A DNA stretch of 64,000 nt from NCBI GenBank assembly GCA_003712125.1, contig RHLF01000002.1, positions 310,001 through 374,000 of the forward strand. The letters are read 5' to 3'. A program made the position numbers and the translations under genes. Shown here piece after piece: positions 22,285 through 30,364 of this stretch. The notes under the pieces are model-generated. The model saw only the letters and a program-made list of their open reading frames with translations, was not told the DNA's origin and made no database searches. The DNA is from Allomuricauda sp. (lineage in GTDB: Bacteria; Bacteroidota; Bacteroidia; Flavobacteriales; Flavobacteriaceae). Position 1 is the stretch's first letter; each line of letters starts with the position of its first letter.

Positions 22285-22307
22285 TTATTTAGAATGATTA
22301 AAAATAA
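22285..22307. promoter_or_regulatory. Fur-box-like dyad between methyltransferase and fur-family gene
   Basis: TTATTTAGAA-TGA-TTAAAAATAA: the left arm differs from TTATTTAGAC at one base and the right arm is weaker. Spacing equals the other copies. It lies just upstream of the -7 box TATTTTTG at 22309-22316 of the fur-like gene, which suggests autoregulation. Confidence 0.5.
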
Positions 22308-22331: not shown

Positions 22332-22784
22332 ATGGCTTGTGTAAGTAGCTATAAGATTATTAAGGGAGTGTTTACTGAATTTCTGGAAAGAAACGGGCAT
22401 CGAAAAACGCCTGAGCGCTATGCTATTCTGGAAGAGCTTTACAATAGTGATGATCATTTGGATATTGATTCGCTCTATATTTTGATGAAAGAGAAAAAGT
22501 ATCGTGTTAGCCGAGCCACCTTGTACAATACCATGGAACTTTTATTGGAATGTAATCTAGTGCGTAAACATCGATTTGGAGATAAGGTGTTCAAGTACGA
22601 GAAGTCACTATTTAGTAGCAAGCATGACCATGTCATATTAACAGATACAGGCGAGGTTTTAGAATTTAGTGATCCACGTATTCAAAATATTAAAGAGACT
22701 ATTGAAGAGGTCTTTAATATCAATATTGATGAACACTCCTTGTATTTCTATGGGATACGGAATGAAGTAAAGGTGAGGAAATAA
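22332..22784 (+). CDS. Fur-family transcriptional regulator lacking structural zinc cysteines
   Basis: The product is 150 residues. The winged-helix DNA-binding domain (about 10-85) has [17 protein letters not shown] and the recognition helix [18 protein letters not shown]. The dimerisation domain keeps the metal-sensing [18 protein letters not shown], but the two positions that are Cys in canonical Fur (CxxCG) are Leu and Thr, and the second CxxC near the C-terminus is absent ([11 protein letters not shown]). It is thus a Fur relative with an altered zinc site. It is the obvious candidate to bind the repeated dyads around the neighbouring iron operons. It could sense iron, haem or another metal. 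Confidence 0.88.
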
Positions 22785-22821: not shown

Positions 22822-22844
22822 TTATTTAGAATTAATTTAGATAA
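22822..22844. promoter_or_regulatory. Fur-box-like dyad upstream of the DUF4856 operon
   Basis: TTATTTAGAA-TTA-ATTTAGATAA has the same 10-3-10 layout as the other copies. It lies 76 bases before the DUF4856 start; a second half-site follows at 22902-22911. Confidence 0.55.
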
Positions 22845-22901
22845 GTCTTTGCCAAAAGATCACGGCATTATATATTCGCAACTCAAAACAATTAATAATT
22901 G

Positions 22902-22911
22902 GTCTAAATAA
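22902..22911 (+). promoter_or_regulatory. Exact dyad half-site directly before the DUF4856 gene
   Basis: GTCTAAATAA is identical to the right arm of the dyads at 13040 and 30342, 8 bases before the ATG at 22920. Its left arm is poor. Together with the dyad at 22822 it may make a double operator. Confidence 0.4.
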
Positions 22912-22919
22912 AAATAATT

Positions 22920-24311
22920 ATGAAAACCTTAAAATATTTTTCAATAGTTCTGATGGCAGGTTTGTTTTTCGTGGCTTGTTCCAATGACGATGACGCCACC
23001 GGGCCTACGTGTACTGATGGCATCCAAAACGGCGATGAAACCGGCGTCGATTGCGGGGGCAGTTGTGCCCCTTGCGAGGTTGCGGCCACTTGTGACGATG
23101 GCATCCAAAACGGTGATGAAGAAGGTGTGGATTGTGGTGGAAGTTCCTGTTCGCCCTGTACCACCGGAATTGAAATTCCGGCGACCTATGTGTTTGAGCG
23201 TAACGGCGAATCTACGGTAAGCTTTAGTGGACAAACAACACGTCTCTTGATGGCGCGTGAAGTGCTTGGGCTGCTTAGGGACAATACCTCTACTGAGGCT
23301 GACATCGATGCCGCATTTGACCACCAAGAAGGTGCTATGGACTTTAGTGATGATGACTTAAATGCTTCTGATAAGCAAGTAAGAAACAAAACTGCAGGAT
23401 CATACGTCTTTAGCCAACTTTTACCGGCCGTTGCCTCAATTGCCGTCAAAGCAGATTTTGATGGTTATATCGCAGAACAGGTCAACGAGGTGTTCCCATT
23501 TTGGAACCAAGTAGCTACAGAAGGGAATGCCGGTCAATTGCCTGATGGTTCTTCAACACGTTATGTGAATGCAAGAGGATTGGAAGTTGATCAAGCTTTT
23601 ATCAAAGGTTTGACAGGAGCCTTTGTGTCTGATCAAATTCTTAATAATTATACCGATCCTGGTCAGCTGGCCCAATTTGAAGACGATAATGATAACGATG
23701 TTATTGTTGATGGTAAGACCTATACCGACATGGAGCACGATTGGGATGAAGCCTATGGTTATTTCTTTGGTGTGGCAGCCGATGGCGAAAATCCAGTAGC
23801 TGCATTGCTTGATGGTGGTGATCCAGGTGATTTCAGTTCTGGGTCTGACGAGTTCCTATACAAGTATGTGGATAATGTAGAAGCCAATTTCGATGGAACC
23901 GCCGCAGCTATTTTTGACGCGTACAAAGCAGGGAGAACTGCTATCGTTAACAAGGATTATGACGAGCGCGATGCCCAGGCCGATATCCTAAGGGAGAAGA
24001 TAGCCATGTTGGTTGCGGTACGAGCAATTCATTACCTAAAAGCAGGTGCGAGTGGTGTTGGTGGAACAAATCAAGGAGGTACTTTTCATGATTTGTCTGA
24101 AGCTTACGGCTTTATTTACAGTTTGCAATTTCTAAGATCGCCAGGTTCTGATTTAGCGTTCTATTTCTCAAGAGATGAAGTTCTTGGATACTTGGATACC
24201 ATTTACAATACACCAACGAATGGATTTTGGAATGTAACCACTGAGAATCTCGATGAGGTTGCAGAGGCAATAGCTGCCAAATTTAGCTTTACAGCTGCGG
24301 AAGTTGACTAA
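22920..24311 (+). CDS. DUF4856 lipoprotein with two Cys-rich repeats
   Basis: The product is 463 residues. The lipobox GLFFVAC puts the lipidated Cys at about residue 20. Two near-identical Cys-rich units follow (about 30-81, each with DGIQNGDE, GVDCGG and CxxC). Then the DUF4856 domain starts at IPATYVFERNGESTVSFSGQ and runs to the end. This domain is helical and imelysin-like; it holds GTFHDLSEAYGF, a His-Glu motif reminiscent of the GxHxxE metal site of imelysin. It is probably an outer-membrane metal-binding lipoprotein. It leads the operon, though a strong terminator stands between it and the imelysin gene. Confidence 0.82.
   Translation: MKTLKYFSIVLMAGLFFVACSNDDDATGPTCTDGIQNGDETGVDCGGSCAPCEVAATCDDGIQNGDEEGVDCGGSSCSPCTTGIEIPATYVFERNGESTVSFSGQTTRLLMAREVLGLLRDNTSTEADIDAAFDHQEGAMDFSDDDLNASDKQVRNKTAGSYVFSQLLPAVASIAVKADFDGYIAEQVNEVFPFWNQVATEGNAGQLPDGSSTRYVNARGLEVDQAFIKGLTGAFVSDQILNNYTDPGQLAQFEDDNDNDVIVDGKTYTDMEHDWDEAYGYFFGVAADGENPVAALLDGGDPGDFSSGSDEFLYKYVDNVEANFDGTAAAIFDAYKAGRTAIVNKDYDERDAQADILREKIAMLVAVRAIHYLKAGASGVGGTNQGGTFHDLSEAYGFIYSLQFLRSPGSDLAFYFSRDEVLGYLDTIYNTPTNGFWNVTTENLDEVAEAIAAKFSFTAAEVD
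23010..23160 (+). repeat. Tandem Cys-rich repeat within the DUF4856 gene
   Basis: Two units with an 81-base period each encode C-x-DGIQNGDE-x-GVDCGG-x-C-x-PC. The DNA is similar between copies, suggesting a fairly recent tandem duplication or strong constraint. Cys spacing suggests disulfides or a metal site. Confidence 0.8.
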
Positions 24312-24358
24312 TTCCATAGCAAATACATGACTATCGTAATCTCGAAATAAGAATAAAT

Positions 24359-24402
24359 AATAAAGGATGCACTACATCATGTTCTGCATCCTTTATTTTT
24401 GT
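24359..24402 (+). terminator. Strong terminator between DUF4856 and imelysin genes
   Basis: TAAAGGATGCA-N13-TGCATCCTTTA is a perfect 11-bp stem (13 with flanking A-T pairs), followed by TTTTTGTT. Expression of the downstream genes would need read-through or another promoter. Confidence 0.85.
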
Positions 24403-24436
24403 TCCAGAAAAATTTTAATTTGAAAAAAAAAGCACA

Positions 24437-25606
24437 ATGAAAAGAAGATTTGTATGGCTTCTTCCGGTATTTCTAGCCCTTTTTATATGGGCTTGTTCTT
24501 CAGATGGTGATGATTCCGAAGATCCAACCGACGACCTTGGCATGACCGATGATGATGGTGGTAATTCAGATGATGATGGATCATCGGTAACCTTTGAGCG
24601 TGGTACCATGTTGGCCAATTGGGCAGATAATATTATCCTTCCTTCCTATGATAATTTTCTAACTGTTTTTGCAACCTTTAAGCTTGAGTTTGATGCCTTT
24701 CAGGCCGATGTCAATGAAGCTAATCTGGTCAACCTAAGAACAGCATGGATTGCCGCTTATAAAAGTTGGCAACATATCTCAATGTTCGAGATTGGCCCCG
24801 CCGAAGACAATGGGCTCCGGTTGAATGTAAATACTTACCCCACTGATTTTGCTTTGATTGAAAATCATATTGCAAGTGGCACCTATAATTTTGATCTCCC
24901 TTCGAACAGGGATTCCAAAGGTTTTCCAGCATTGGATTATTTGCTTAATGGGATGGCCGGAACAGATTTGGAAATTGTTGCTGTTTTTAATGATGGGACA
25001 AATGGAGCTGCCTATATCACCTATTTAAGCGATGTCCTGAACGATATTGAAACAAGGGTTGCCGCAGTTCGGGATGCCTGGCAAGGCGGTTATCGAGACA
25101 CCTTTGTAGCCAATAACGGTTCTTCGGCCACAGCATCAACGGACCGTTTTGTTAATGACTTCATTTTTTATTATGAAAAGTTTCTTAGGGCCGGAAAAAT
25201 GGGAATTCCCCTGGGAGTTTTTACAGGAGTACAAGCCCCAAACACTATTGAGTCTTATTTCTATCCAGAATTGTCAAATGATTTGTTCTTAGAAGGGTTG
25301 AACGCGGTGGAAGACTTTTTCAACGGGAAGCATTTTGGTTCGGAGGCCCTAGGAGAGAGCTTATCATCTTACCTTGTTTCCTTGGGTGAAGAAGCACTTC
25401 GAGATGATATTTTGAACCAGTTTGGACTCGCGAGAACTGCAATAGAGGCTCTTGAGCCTTTTAGAACAGAAATTGAAACGAATAACCCAGCTATTGACAT
25501 GTTGTCGGCCTATGATGAAGTTCAGCGAGCCGTGGCTATGTTAAAGGTAGATATGGTCTCTTCAATGAGCATTGCCATCGATTTCGTGGATGCGGATGGG
25601 GACTAG
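24437..25606 (+). CDS. Imelysin-like lipoprotein (peptidase M75 / IrpA family)
   Basis: The product is 389 residues. The lipobox FIWACSS puts the lipidated Cys at about residue 20, and a long Asp-rich linker (about 23-52) follows. The helical imelysin domain starts near NWADNIILPSYDNF and includes WQHISMFEIGPAEDN, GFPALDYLLNG and DFIFYYEKFLRAGKMGIPLG. The usual metal motif GxHxxE is replaced here by GFPALD. Imelysin-like proteins are iron-regulated outer-membrane or periplasmic proteins; true protease activity is doubtful for the family. The stop codon TAG is followed immediately by the ATG of the HTTM gene, so they are cotranslated. Confidence 0.88.
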   Translation: MKRRFVWLLPVFLALFIWACSSDGDDSEDPTDDLGMTDDDGGNSDDDGSSVTFERGTMLANWADNIILPSYDNFLTVFATFKLEFDAFQADVNEANLVNLRTAWIAAYKSWQHISMFEIGPAEDNGLRLNVNTYPTDFALIENHIASGTYNFDLPSNRDSKGFPALDYLLNGMAGTDLEIVAVFNDGTNGAAYITYLSDVLNDIETRVAAVRDAWQGGYRDTFVANNGSSATASTDRFVNDFIFYYEKFLRAGKMGIPLGVFTGVQAPNTIESYFYPELSNDLFLEGLNAVEDFFNGKHFGSEALGESLSSYLVSLGEEALRDDILNQFGLARTAIEALEPFRTEIETNNPAIDMLSAYDEVQRAVAMLKVDMVSSMSIAIDFVDADGD

Positions 25607-26974
25607 ATGAAAAGCGCTTTGCAAACATATCTTTCTAAAAAAGTAGAGGCCGCCCCGTTGGCGGTCTTTCGCATTTTTTTTGGTTTGATGATGGTTTGGA
25701 GCATCATTCGGTTTTGGTACCATGGTTGGATTGAGAGCCTTTACCTTGAGCCAAAATTTCATTTTTCTTATTATGGTTTCGAATGGGTACAGCCATTAGG
25801 AAATTGGACCTATCTTTTGTTCATAATTTGTGGCATCGCCGCTTTCTGTGTTGCAATCGGTTATAAGTATAAAGTGGCAATTATTACTTTTTTTCTGTCC
25901 TTTACCTATATCGAGTTGATGGATAAGACAACGTACCTGAACCACTATTACTTTATCAGTATCCTCTCGTTCCTTTTAATTTTTATTCCAGCCAATGCCT
26001 ACTTTTCATTGGATGCTGCTCGGCAATTAAAGAATAGGTTTCAGTTTGTTCCCAAATGGAATGTTGATGCCATTAAACTACTGTTGGCGTTGGTCTATGT
26101 TTATGCTGGTTTGGCGAAATTAAATTCCGATTGGTTGGTCGATGCTGCGCCGTTGCGGATTTGGTTGCCTTCAAAGGCTGATTTGCCCCTTATTGGTGGG
26201 TTGATGGGTTACCCATGGATACATTATGTTTTTAGCTGGTTTGGCGCGCTTTATGATTTGACCATTCCCTTTTTATTGTTATACAAACCAAGCCGTTGGG
26301 TGGCTTTCTTTTTTGTCGTGGTGTTTCATGTAATGACTCGGGTGTTATTTAATATAGGCATGTTCCCCTATATCATGATTGTCGTTACTCTAATCTTTTT
26401 TAGTCCCGCGGTGCATCAGAAAATATTGCGTTTTTTTGCCTCAATCTTAAAAATTGATCAAATAAGGTTTGATAACGGTCGCCAATTTGAATTGCTGCCC
26501 AAATTTCGAAAAAAACTGGTCTATGTGGTAGTTGCATTCTTTTTTGTTATTCAATTGATTTTACCATGGCGTTATTTGGCTTATCCTGGTGAACTGTTTT
26601 GGACAGAACAAGGTTACCGGTTCTCATGGCGTGTTATGTTGATGGAAAAAGCTGGTTATTGTCAATTTAAGATTGTTGATGGGAAGACGGGTCAATGGTT
26701 TTATGTAGATAATTCCGATTTTTTGACGCCTTTCCAAGAAAAACAAATGTCATTCCAACCTGATTTTATTTTGGAATATGCGCACTACCTTGAAAACCAT
26801 TTTGCAAAACAAGGGCACAAAAATATTGAGATTTATGTAGAGAGCTATGTTAGCCTGAATGGTCGGCGAAGCACATTTTACATTGATCCCAAAGTTAATT
26901 TAGTGAAGGAACGGGAATCGTTCCGACATAAAAAATGGATTATTCCTTTTACTGATGAAATCAAAGGTATTTAA
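25607..26974 (+). CDS. HTTM-domain membrane protein (vitamin K-dependent gamma-carboxylase-like)
   Basis: This 455-residue integral membrane protein has about eight to nine helices up to residue 325, then a soluble C-terminal part. Family signatures are PLAVFRIFFGLMMVW (first helix), MDKTTYLNHYYFISILSFLL, VYVYAGLAKLNSDWL and FHVMTRVLFNIGMFPYIMI. These are shared with vitamin K-dependent gamma-glutamyl carboxylase and bacterial HTTM proteins. Whether the bacterial form carboxylates, epoxidises quinone or only moves electrons is not known. It starts right after the imelysin stop and overlaps the TonB receptor by 20 bases, which ties it firmly to metal uptake. Confidence 0.85.
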   Translation: MKSALQTYLSKKVEAAPLAVFRIFFGLMMVWSIIRFWYHGWIESLYLEPKFHFSYYGFEWVQPLGNWTYLLFIICGIAAFCVAIGYKYKVAIITFFLSFTYIELMDKTTYLNHYYFISILSFLLIFIPANAYFSLDAARQLKNRFQFVPKWNVDAIKLLLALVYVYAGLAKLNSDWLVDAAPLRIWLPSKADLPLIGGLMGYPWIHYVFSWFGALYDLTIPFLLLYKPSRWVAFFFVVVFHVMTRVLFNIGMFPYIMIVVTLIFFSPAVHQKILRFFASILKIDQIRFDNGRQFELLPKFRKKLVYVVVAFFFVIQLILPWRYLAYPGELFWTEQGYRFSWRVMLMEKAGYCQFKIVDGKTGQWFYVDNSDFLTPFQEKQMSFQPDFILEYAHYLENHFAKQGHKNIEIYVESYVSLNGRRSTFYIDPKVNLVKERESFRHKKWIIPFTDEIKGI

Positions 26975-29426
26975 AGCATTACTTTCTTTTTTAATGGGCT
27001 TTTCGTCTTTTGCCCAGTTCACTATTACCGGTTTCGTAACGGATGAAAATAACCGTCCCTTAAGTAATGCCGAGATCTATTTGAGACAGCCTCAAATCTT
27101 AGCAATCACTTCAGAAGATGGTCGTTTCGTATTGGAGGCTATCGATGAGGGAACCTACGATGTGGTTGTTTTTGCCTTTGAACATCGTGTGTTCGAACAA
27201 CAACTTGAGATTACGGCTGCAACAACTTTGAGTTTTCGATTGGAACCATTGGAGGCACAAGAACTTTCAGAAGTTGTGCTTACTGAAGAACGGGAGAAAG
27301 TATTCGCCTTGCAAAAGTTAAAAACTGTTGAGGGCACCGCTATCTATGCCGGAAAAAAGAGTGAGGTTATTTTAGTTGGTAATGTACCCGGTAATCTGGC
27401 AGCAAATAATCCAAGGCAAATTTATAGTCAGGTAGCAGGCCTAAATATCTTTGATTATGGTGATGCGGGCTTACAATTGAATATTGGAGGTAGAGGCTTG
27501 GATCCGAACCGGACCGCCAATTTTAATGTTCGTCAAAATGGCTATGATATCAGCGCTGATGCGCTGGGATATCCTGAAAGTTATTATACCCCTCCGGCAG
27601 AAGCCTTAGATCAAATTCAGATAGTGCGAGGGGCTGCCTCCCTTCAGTATGGTCCCCAATTTGGCGGACTGGTCAATTTTAAGTTCAAAAAACCCAATCC
27701 AACCAAAAAAATAGATTGGACTTCCCGGCAGACCTTGGGTTCTTTTGATTTGTTTACCAGCTTTAATAGCTTATCGGGTACGGTAGGCGAATTCAGCTAT
27801 TATACTTATTTCAATTATAAGCAAGGGAATGGGTTTCGTCCAAATTCGCGATTTAGTAGCCGAAACTACTTTGGGCACTTTGAATATCAATTGTCAAATA
27901 AAACAAGTTTGGCCCTGGAGACAACATTTTTGAACTATTTGGCCAAACAGCCTGGAGGTCTTACTGATGCGCAGTTCCTCGATAATCCAGAATTCAGTAA
28001 CCGTGAACGAAATTGGTTCAATGTGGATTGGAAATTGTTTTCACTACGCTTAGACCATCAATTTTCCAATAAAACAGATTTCAGTTTAAATCTTTTTGCC
28101 TTAGATGCTTCGAGAAAGGCCTTGGGTTTTCGAACCAATCGCGTTTCCCAGCTTGATGATCCCAATGAACCTCGAGAATTGTTGGTGGATAACTTTAACA
28201 ATTGGGGCGCTGAAGCCCGGATATTACATCGGTATCCCGTAGGCAATCGCAATTCAGTTTTACTTTTGGGTGCCAAGTACTATCAGACTTCCAATGATCA
28301 GCGGCAAGGCCCGGGTAGTGCAACCGCTAATCCTGACTTTACCTTTGCAGCCTCTGAGTTTCCGAATTACGAACGCCAATCCCAGTTTGAGTTTCCCAAT
28401 CTAAATCTGGCTCTTTTCGGTGAACATATTTTCAATTTGTCAGATAACTTCTCATTGACTCCAGGATTTCGATTCGAATACATCAAAACAGAAAGTGAAG
28501 GTAGTTTTCGAAATATCGTTTTGGATTTAGCGGGAAATCCTTTATTAAATGAAGAAGTAACAGATGATCGAAACTTTGAACGCAGCTTTTTGCTTTTAGG
28601 CCTTGGGGCTTCCTATAAGCCTACGAACTCTATCGAACTCTATGGCAATTTCTCACAGAACTACCGCTCGGTTACCTTTAGTGATATTCGCGTAGTAAAT
28701 CCATCTTTCCAAATAGACCCAAATATTTCCGATGAAGACGGATTCACGGCTGATATCGGAATTCGTGGCCGTTTGAAAAATGTTATCACCTATGATGTAA
28801 GCGCCTTTGGACTGCTCTATGATGATCGTTTGGGTGAAATATTAAAAAGTGAAACGCGTACGAATCCAGATGGGGAAGAGGTAGAAACCGGCAGGGTGGT
28901 GCGCTTTCGAGGCAATATTGGAACAGCCTTTATTTATGGTTTGGAATCCTTTGCAGAGATCAACCTTAAATCCATTTTTTTTCCTGGGTATGAAAAATTA
29001 AAGCTGAACTATTTTTTGAATTTGGCATTAACCAATTCGGAGTATACAAAGTCTGATCAAAATAATGTGGAAGGTAATGAAGTGGAGTTTATTCCTGATA
29101 TCAACCTTAAAACGGGGTTGAGCTTTGGATATGGCAATTTTTTGGGAAGCCTGCAGTACACTTATTTATCCGAACAATTTACCGATGCTACCAACGCACC
29201 CCAAGATGTTAATGATAACCAGCGAGGTATTGAGGGCACCATTCCCTCATATGATATTATAGATTTCTCATTATCATACTCGTGGAAACGACTAAAACTG
29301 GAAACGGGCATCAATAATTTGCTTGATAACTCATACTTTACCCGCAGAGCAACCGGATATCCAGGGCCAGGAATTATTCCGGCCGAACCAAGAACATTTT
29401 ATACTACCTTGCAATTGAAACTCTAA
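26955..29426 (+). CDS. TonB-dependent receptor, FecA-like, with carboxypeptidase-like N-domain
   Basis: The product is 823 residues. It has a signal peptide (about 1-20), a carboxypeptidase-regulatory-like beta domain (about 23-95, ITGFVTDENNRPLSNAEIYL), a TonB box region around LSEVVLTEE, and a plug domain (about 130-235) with GGRGLDPNRTANFNVRQNG and IQIVRGAASLQYGPQFGGL. The latter resembles FecA and related ferric-citrate/siderophore receptors. A barrel follows, ending TTLQLKL. It starts inside the HTTM gene. The ligand is probably a ferric chelate, but this is not shown by sequence. Confidence 0.9.
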   Translation: MKSKVFKALLSFLMGFSSFAQFTITGFVTDENNRPLSNAEIYLRQPQILAITSEDGRFVLEAIDEGTYDVVVFAFEHRVFEQQLEITAATTLSFRLEPLEAQELSEVVLTEEREKVFALQKLKTVEGTAIYAGKKSEVILVGNVPGNLAANNPRQIYSQVAGLNIFDYGDAGLQLNIGGRGLDPNRTANFNVRQNGYDISADALGYPESYYTPPAEALDQIQIVRGAASLQYGPQFGGLVNFKFKKPNPTKKIDWTSRQTLGSFDLFTSFNSLSGTVGEFSYYTYFNYKQGNGFRPNSRFSSRNYFGHFEYQLSNKTSLALETTFLNYLAKQPGGLTDAQFLDNPEFSNRERNWFNVDWKLFSLRLDHQFSNKTDFSLNLFALDASRKALGFRTNRVSQLDDPNEPRELLVDNFNNWGAEARILHRYPVGNRNSVLLLGAKYYQTSNDQRQGPGSATANPDFTFAASEFPNYERQSQFEFPNLNLALFGEHIFNLSDNFSLTPGFRFEYIKTESEGSFRNIVLDLAGNPLLNEEVTDDRNFERSFLLLGLGASYKPTNSIELYGNFSQNYRSVTFSDIRVVNPSFQIDPNISDEDGFTADIGIRGRLKNVITYDVSAFGLLYDDRLGEILKSETRTNPDGEEVETGRVVRFRGNIGTAFIYGLESFAEINLKSIFFPGYEKLKLNYFLNLALTNSEYTKSDQNNVEGNEVEFIPDINLKTGLSFGYGNFLGSLQYTYLSEQFTDATNAPQDVNDNQRGIEGTIPSYDIIDFSLSYSWKRLKLETGINNLLDNSYFTRRATGYPGPGIIPAEPRTFYTTLQLKL

Positions 29427-29437
29427 TATTATTCCAA

Positions 29438-29893
29438 TTGAAACTTGTAAAGAGAATTTTGACCGTTCTATTAATTGCCTTGGTACTACTTCAATTTTGG
29501 AGGCCTGAAAAAAATAAATCTTCTGAAAATGTAGTAGCCGCATTTGAGTTGGAGACAAGACCGGGCCCTGAGGTTGTGGCCACATTAGAGAAATATTGCT
29601 ATGATTGCCATAGCAATAACACTGTTTATCCTTGGTATGCTGAAGTTGCACCTGTTTCGCTTTGGATTGATGGTCATGTAGAAGAAGGTAAGGAACACTT
29701 TAATGTTTCCGATTGGGCTTCATGGAAATTAAAAAAGAAAGACCATAAACTGGAGGAGTTGATTGAGGAGGTAGAGGAAGGCCATATGCCTGAAGACTCC
29801 TATACTTGGATTCATGGGAACTTGACCGAAGAAGAAAAGGAATTGCTCATTGAGTGGGCAGAAAAAGCCAGACAGAACTTATCTAAAATTTAA
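29438..29893 (+). CDS. Haem-binding domain protein (CxxCH), TTG start
   Basis: The product is 151 residues. It begins at TTG 29438 with a membrane-anchor or signal helix (KRILTVLLIALVLLQFW). The conserved core is KYCYDCHSNNTVYPWY, with the c-type haem motif CxxCH, followed by APVSLWIDGHVEEGKEHFN and MPEDSYTWIHGNLTEEEKE. This fits the haem-binding domain family (Haem_bd), a small periplasmic cytochrome. It is 11 bases after the TonB receptor and ends the operon before a terminator. It may accept or donate electrons for periplasmic iron chemistry. Confidence 0.85.
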   Translation: MKLVKRILTVLLIALVLLQFWRPEKNKSSENVVAAFELETRPGPEVVATLEKYCYDCHSNNTVYPWYAEVAPVSLWIDGHVEEGKEHFNVSDWASWKLKKKDHKLEELIEEVEEGHMPEDSYTWIHGNLTEEEKELLIEWAEKARQNLSKI

Positions 29894-29918
29894 AAAAGCG
29901 GCCCATCGGACCGCTTTT
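29892..29918 (+). terminator. Terminator after the haem-binding protein gene
   Basis: AAAAGCGG pairs with CCGCTTTT around CCCATCGGA, which has its own CC-GG extension. It can act in both directions and ends the iron operon. Confidence 0.75.
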
Positions 29919-29961
29919 CGCGTGAACCTAATAACTCTCAATACAATATATATCAAGCACA

Positions 29962-30341: not shown

Positions 30342-30364
30342 TTATTTATAATAAGTCTAAATAA
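30342..30364. promoter_or_regulatory. Fur-box-like dyad before the DUF6686-like gene
   Basis: TTATTTATAA-TAA-GTCTAAATAA: the right arm is exact and the left arm is close to TTATTTAGAC. It lies 30 bases upstream of the leftward start at 30312 and 52 bases from the guaB -7 box, so the leftward gene is the likely target. Confidence 0.6.

Follow-up and report, generated by a model that had tools for sequence, protein, structure and literature searches.

Many marine Bacteroidota carry an iron-linked operon that encodes a relative of the human blood-clotting enzyme, the vitamin K-dependent gamma-carboxylase (VKGC; GGCX in human). We describe this operon from a 64,000-nt stretch of the genome of Allomuricauda sp. 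(contig RHLF01000002.1, positions 310,001 to 374,000), referred to here as the window. Calling of open reading frames (ORFs) finds five genes, all rightward (plus strand), in the order DUF4856, imelysin, HTTM, TonB-dependent receptor and Haem_bd. The first (22920 to 24311; Pfam match of 390 bits) encodes a predicted DUF4856 lipoprotein with a lipobox cysteine, Cys20, and a Cys-rich N-terminal linker. The second (24437 to 25606) encodes a predicted imelysin-family lipoprotein resembling IPPA/PA4372, which matches Peptidase_M75 at 113.9 bits (cut-off 23.5) and has GFPALD at the position of the GxxxxE motif. The third (25607 to 26974) encodes the VKGC homologue, with a transmembrane domain, HTTM (PF05090, 278 bits), and a lumenal, here periplasmic, domain, VKGC_lumenal_dom (PF22777, 211.5 bits), both against cut-offs of 27.7. 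The receptor (26955 to 29426) has an N-terminal carboxypeptidase-regulatory-like domain and a plug; it scores above the cut-off for the general TonB barrel PF00593 (109 bits) and below that of the siderophore-receptor model TIGR01783 (132.1 against 223.5 bits). The last gene (29438 to 29893, with a TTG start) encodes a small CxxCH protein of the Haem_bd family (147 bits).

A first-pass annotation of the window, made from the letters alone, had listed these five rightward genes, and the ORF coordinates and strong Pfam matches agree with it. Both junctions that it pointed to are present: the imelysin stop (25606) is contiguous with the HTTM start (25607), and the HTTM and receptor genes overlap by 20 bases (26955 to 26974). 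Elsewhere, the spacing of the HTTM and receptor genes has a median of -20 nt and is at most 20 nt in 125 of 130 pairs. The locus sets pooled for this count, and for the counts of Fur-box-like sites and of loci with and without HTTM given below, partly overlap (for example, L125 with G049 and L167 with G063), so that the effective numbers are smaller.

Conservation of the gene order

Two samples were used, one of 120 genomes from the same family and one of 296 genomes drawn from the class. A VKGC homologue is present in 96 of the 120 family genomes, and DUF4856 in 37 of them (38 loci). All 34 close loci, which are the 33 best VKGC matches of the family plus one more (G011) and include the window's own, have the order DUF4856-imelysin-HTTM-TonB; the remaining four of the 38 (L112 to L115) lack HTTM. 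In named genomes (the best 80 of 587 confirmed relatives from a scan of genome contigs), ORF calling gives the full four-gene order in 73 of 80 loci, a count that is slightly low because genes of L186 and L181 were missed by the ORF caller. On recheck, all four genes are present in both, although in L181 the contig end truncates the receptor. Of the other five, L156 is cut after HTTM, and the sequence of L178 begins 1 kb ahead of HTTM and holds an unlabelled ORF in that part; L172, L174 and L195 are described below. Across the class, 50 of 76 DUF4856 matches (76 of 77 rows, one of the three fragment rows of G182 being left out) are followed on the same strand by a VKGC gene 1,924 to 2,453 bases away; the other 26 are not, and several of these are weak partial matches. 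Stretches around 20 of the 50 coupled loci all show the full order. The neighbourhood conservation that the first-pass annotation had proposed as a check was thus found in all three sets.

HTTM is a separable module, or cassette, within this arrangement. Among 20 stretches around uncoupled DUF4856 genes, 13 consist of DUF4856-imelysin-TonB without HTTM; the other seven are stretches in which no imelysin or receptor is labelled, fragments, and L235, a second contig of the same genome that carries imelysin-HTTM-TonB. On a receptor tree of 72 loci (FastTree, approximate), HTTM status changes 10 times while the other three genes stay. We found no significant HTTM remnant in the four gaps examined in HTTM-lacking loci (that is, DUF4856 loci without HTTM), three of which hold an unrelated ORF. 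Since the transport core exists without HTTM in some lineages, HTTM fits an accessory enzyme better than a part of the transporter. Oxygen dependence as a reason for its loss was considered and rejected: COX1 is present in 43 of 43 HTTM-bearing and 19 of 20 HTTM-lacking genomes and does not discriminate between them.

The Haem_bd gene, by comparison, turns up in the stretch fetched for just 37 of 130 HTTM-bearing and 1 of 16 HTTM-lacking loci, and for this reason we do not count it as core; its position also varies, upstream or downstream of the other genes. The functional unit is DUF4856-imelysin-(HTTM)-TonB, and not five genes. The earlier claim that all five form one unit therefore holds for this core, whereas Haem_bd is optional and HTTM separable.

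The link to iron

We scanned the window with the Fur-box consensus of Riemerella anatipestifer (PMC5609570). Five matches with at most three mismatches fall at three places, where 0.08 would be expected: before DUF4856 (22824 to 22842, plus strand, 16/19 match), before a fur-family gene (22287 to 22305), and between the DUF6686 and IMPDH genes. A match of at least 16/19 stands 5' of DUF4856 in 121 of 154 loci, compared with 0.6 in shuffles; by sample, these are 98 of 116 close loci and 23 of 38 class-wide loci. Of the 16 HTTM-lacking loci listed, 12 have a site at the same threshold. As controls, it was found before 0 of 43 HTTM genes in other contexts, before 0 of the 41 genes preceding those, and before 26 of 1709 unlabelled ORFs. 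The operon is probably controlled by Fur.

Published expression data also bear on this point. In R. anatipestifer, RAYM_09779-09794 (TonB receptor, 'vitamin K-dependent gamma-carboxylase', imelysin and hypothetical protein) are jointly raised when iron is absent, by 2.1-3.1 fold in the wild type as measured by RNA-seq, and stand 1.4-1.9 fold higher in a fur mutant with iron; the authors class them as Fur-regulated (PMC5609570). In that paper the cluster appears only as entries of an RNA-seq table, apart from a reference to the receptor, and we match it to the present operon by annotation and gene order. The first-pass annotation had proposed a metal-uptake system and looked for a change in expression with iron. 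The conserved neighbourhood, the Fur-box-like site and the Riemerella response make that reading more specific, namely to iron, and the response itself is present, though in another genus. We regard an iron-linked uptake operon of Bacteroidota as well supported, and the uptake role as likely.

The imelysin can be placed more closely. Its structural model (pLDDT 87.5) matches ICMP 7xrx (Z 31.7), 4ecg (Z 30.4) and IPPA 3pf0 (Z 29.5) over 299-323 residues, followed by EfeO, EfeM and Algp7 at Z of about 20. The GFPALD motif is IPPA-like, with Pro for His and Asp for Glu (compared with PMC3143127). The strict GxxxxE motif is lacking, Glu being replaced by Asp in 139 of 141 HTTM-bearing and 17 of 23 HTTM-lacking loci. 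An IPPA-type imelysin is shared with the operon PA4370-PA4373 of Pseudomonas aeruginosa (ICMP, di-haem peroxidase DUF1111, IPPA-type imelysin), for which iron uptake has been proposed and which belongs to a Fur-regulated operon type (Xu et al. 2011, PMC3143127). Besides the change in the motif, the present operon differs in having DUF4856, HTTM and a TonB receptor in place of the DUF1111 peroxidase. Neither the operon nor the window genome contains an Efe/ICMP-type linked di-haem peroxidase (DUF1111, or di-haem oxidoreductase, DHOR; PF06537 search), while Dyp-type EfeB was not searched for. The LruB locus of Leptospira has the order imelysin, cytochrome-c-like protein, imelysin, with both imelysins reported to be raised under iron limitation, and Leptospira also has a VKGC homologue, a likeness at the level of the genus (PMC7567364, PMC4555120).

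DUF4856 had been described at first as a second imelysin-type lipoprotein. The second gene of the operon is indeed an imelysin, but DUF4856 shows no profile similarity to that family beyond the signal peptide, the only part over which hhalign aligns the two. Its model is confident and helical (pLDDT 85), and the imelysin 3n8u appears in its fold comparison at Z 4.7, rank 9, below unrelated helical bundles. Sequence gives no support for DUF4856 as a hidden imelysin; by fold, the best Foldseek E is 1.8 and a second aligner gave only middling helical-bundle rows, with no clear relative. As a separate observation, the N-terminal linker of the window's DUF4856 contains two Cys-rich repeats (CxDGIQNGDExGVDCGG), which are absent from the eight relatives compared. 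In a literature search whose coverage leaves out most subscription papers, we found no paper joining two of imelysin, HTTM and DUF4856; DUF4856 is named in none of the 40 papers listed out of 47 matched, and the carboxylase name, iron and 'TonB-dependent' occur together in PMC5609570 alone.

The VKGC-type enzyme and its possible role

By sequence comparison it is certain that the operon encodes a VKGC-type enzyme. Human GGCX aligns with residues 5-449 of the window's HTTM protein (E of about 1e-47). We surveyed 188 bacterial sequences (141 from the core operon, 37 from a ribF context, 5 from a di-haem-oxidoreductase context and 5 others), using residue roles from cryo-EM structures (PMC12589487). 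The equivalents of human K218, N159, H160, W223, F286, F299 and G259 are invariant in 188/188, and that of F294 is kept in 185/188. In the window, the catalytic base K218 corresponds to K171, the Glu-pocket residues N159 and H160 to N112 and H113, and F286, F294, F299, W223 and V210 of the vitamin-K ring pocket to F240, F248, F253, W176 and V163. Among the 141 core-operon copies, Y395 is Tyr or Phe in every one, and the quinone-pocket residue M401 is Val in every one. In other words, the bacterial protein shares with human GGCX the HTTM and lumenal domains, the catalytic Lys, the Glu-pocket Asn and His, most quinone-ring residues and some tunnel residues; its setting, a bacterial iron operon, is different. 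The first-pass description of a membrane enzyme resembling the vitamin K carboxylase is borne out by the retained catalytic residues. For the electron or modification chemistry that it had proposed, these residues favour a vitamin-K type, but we found no substrate residue.

The changes N158L, N290T and M401V occur together in 141/141 core-operon copies and in 5/5 copies from imelysin/di-haem-oxidoreductase operons (146/146), whereas the ribF-context paralogues keep N/N/M at these positions in 37/37. This signature points to an HTTM subfamily tied to imelysins, and the gene common to the two former contexts is an imelysin directly upstream of HTTM. The second context, an operon of imelysin, di-haem oxidoreductase, IPPA-type imelysin and HTTM, was seen in L047, L056, L058, L063 and L064, and in L309; a record of Persicobacter psychrovividus has the order imelysin/DHOR/imelysin/HTTM, with the N158L and N290T letters. 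HTTM there presumably stands where Pseudomonas has DUF1513. The first gene of these operons has a Fur-box score of 15-18 in five loci, reaching at least 16 in three of the five.

Our preferred reading, held tentatively and at somewhat short of an even chance, is an iron-acquisition operon in which HTTM uses menaquinol to carboxylate a co-exported lipoprotein. DUF4856 and the IPPA-type imelysin would sit at the outer membrane and present iron, or an iron complex, to the TonB-dependent receptor, which would import it. Encoded between the imelysin and receptor genes in most sampled loci, the VKGC-type enzyme would carboxylate acidic side chains, using menaquinol (vitamin K2 in its hydroquinone form) together with O2 and CO2. 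The target would most probably be the imelysin, alternatively DUF4856, and the purpose would be the tuning of metal binding. The product could be gamma-carboxyglutamate or, because the conserved acidic sites of the imelysin are Asp, beta-carboxyaspartate. That bacteria possess such a vitamin-K-type carboxylation, induced by iron starvation, driven by menaquinone and acting on surface iron-binding lipoproteins, we consider doubtful, with an appreciable chance of being right.

Several observations weigh against this reading. Unlike human GGCX, the window's protein has Ala for K217, has lost the GLA-backbone residues N158 and R436 (Leu and Gln) and the C99-C450 disulfide (Phe/Tyr), and lacks the C-terminal third, the alignment stopping at human residue 506 of 758. 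In animals, VKOR recycles vitamin-K epoxide. We tried VKOR co-occurrence as a sign of a vitamin-K cycle and set it aside, VKOR being present in 4 of 21 HTTM-bearing and 1 of 17 HTTM-lacking genomes; it is absent from 17 of the 21, the window genome included. HTTM itself is present in 141 pooled loci and missing from 23 of 164. In Roseivirga, two loci (L174 and L195) place DUF4856 beside HTTM, with neither imelysin nor receptor adjacent; in Winogradskyella, locus L172 carries imelysin-HTTM-TonB but nothing that matches DUF4856. As to regulation, RAYM_09779-09794 still rise 2.7-3.1 fold without iron in the fur mutant of Riemerella, and they are not among the four promoters tested by electrophoretic mobility shift assay (PMC5609570).

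The search for a carboxylation substrate adds to these points. Were HTTM to carboxylate Glu in one of the operon's proteins, the presence of some Glu would be expected to follow that of HTTM; comparing HTTM-bearing with HTTM-lacking loci, we found none in DUF4856, the imelysin or the receptor that clearly does so, and conserved Glu are mostly kept where HTTM is absent. At imelysin D372, Asp occurs in 137 of 141 HTTM-bearing versus 10 of 23 HTTM-lacking loci, but the site could not be upheld as tracking HTTM once the tree was controlled for (median p of 0.625 over 7 independent pairs). D167 was likewise rejected: in the five loci of the di-haem-oxidoreductase context it is Glu even though HTTM is adjacent. 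In the imelysin linker, Glu is lower beside HTTM (0.058 vs 0.088, p 0.003) and Asp higher (p 0.0008); in the DUF4856 linker, Glu is 0.082 beside HTTM vs 0.067 without (p 0.09), and Glu plus Asp is slightly higher (p 0.007). These differences in linker composition lack a tree control and so carry no weight. The outcomes of the substrate search are negative for the carboxylation step.

In the main rival, HTTM would perform quinone chemistry only, oxidising or epoxidising menaquinol and passing oxidising or reducing power to lipoprotein-bound iron with no protein modified, a redox role of the kind that has been suggested for the Efe-operon peroxidase. The retained quinone pocket beside lost GLA-backbone contacts, the HTTM of the sister imelysin/di-haem-oxidoreductase operon, the lack of DHOR from the window genome and the negative search for an HTTM-dependent Glu all fit such a role. 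It has no obvious need, however, of an invariant N159/H160 and a Tyr or Phe at Y395 in the Glu pocket, although H160 also lines the quinone pocket. Nor does HTTM clearly replace the di-haem peroxidase, an idea that we rejected: DHOR is found in 12 of 35 HTTM-bearing genomes (one match weak, in G188) and 9 of 17 HTTM-lacking genomes, with no clear difference. On this evidence we judge quinone chemistry alone to be unlikely, if still a serious competitor.

It is rather improbable, in our view, that the target of HTTM lies outside the lipoproteins, be it the TonB receptor, some other exported protein or a small molecule, for instance an iron chelator. The missing substrate signal in DUF4856 and imelysin would be explained, and the receptor is the most tightly coupled neighbour, by virtue of the 20-nt overlap. 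Its E40 and E106 are also rarer without HTTM, with frequencies of 0.12 and 0.38 in HTTM-lacking loci, 0.45 and 0.70 in distant HTTM-bearing loci, and 0.80 and 0.95 in close HTTM-bearing loci; when families are matched, however, each listed TonB Glu shows a difference in two of five families at most. Moreover, no gene of the unit looks biosynthetic, and a TonB receptor is neither labelled in the stretches of the five di-haem-oxidoreductase-context operons nor adjacent to the two Roseivirga pairs. Finally, that HTTM is a mere passenger, a modular gene in a convenient iron-regulated operon with no direct part in uptake, would agree with its repeated changes of presence on the receptor tree and with the gaps free of detectable remnants, but is very improbable given its near-constant position and overlap across the class, the subfamily signature common to the other imelysin context and the fully conserved catalytic residues.

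Carboxylation of a co-exported lipoprotein could be approached directly in this operon, which would allow a test of whether bacteria make carboxylated metal-binding proteins. It offers a VKGC homologue whose catalytic residues are intact, a gene arrangement that is nearly fixed, few likely substrates, iron limitation as the probable inducer, and natural HTTM-lacking relatives as controls. A Leptospira VKGC homologue reportedly has altered activity, and to our knowledge the existence of protein gamma-carboxylation in bacteria is still an open question. If the enzyme is active, the carboxylase would gain a role in metal uptake and a tractable bacterial model; if the reading is true, a bacterial carboxylation system would predate the animal clotting enzyme or parallel it, and would serve to capture metal. 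If the enzyme is inactive, what remains is still an iron-uptake operon of Bacteroidota, widespread and little characterised, with DUF4856 and imelysin at its base.

Neighbouring features and other VKGC homologues

The Fur-family regulator gene (22332 to 22784, plus strand; Pfam match) lies next door to the operon, as the first-pass annotation noted, and is probably outside the unit: a fur gene occurs within the fetched flank (up to 10 kb) in 1 of 80 named loci, so the adjacency is not conserved. The terminator that had been placed after the last gene exists as a hairpin (29893 to 29919) between the converging Haem_bd and DUF6686 genes, but the terminator scan lists it for the minus strand only, and it may serve DUF6686. 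The third Fur-box-like site, a palindrome at 30344-30362 with 2-3 mismatches on both strands, lies between DUF6686 (minus strand) and IMPDH (plus strand) and may control DUF6686.

The window genome has one DUF4856 match, one imelysin match and two VKGC homologues. The second homologue (438 aa, L032:7099-8415), whose neighbours we take from the starts of their proteins to be ribF-like and serS-like genes, is also present in many sampled Flavobacteriaceae; family contexts were read from stretches around 80 of about 140 VKGC matches. This ribF-context paralogue keeps N158 and the catalytic residues and has no Fur-box-like site. In L172, L180 and L192, imelysin-HTTM-TonB is closely followed by a group of imelysin/di-haem-oxidoreductase genes on the minus strand, suggesting that the two groups are linked in function. 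Divergent HTTM proteins occur in L049 (4606-9341), L050 and L051; that of L049 adjoins a very large FG-GAP/ASPIC-UnbV repeat protein, possibly a further class of partner for VKGC-like enzymes.

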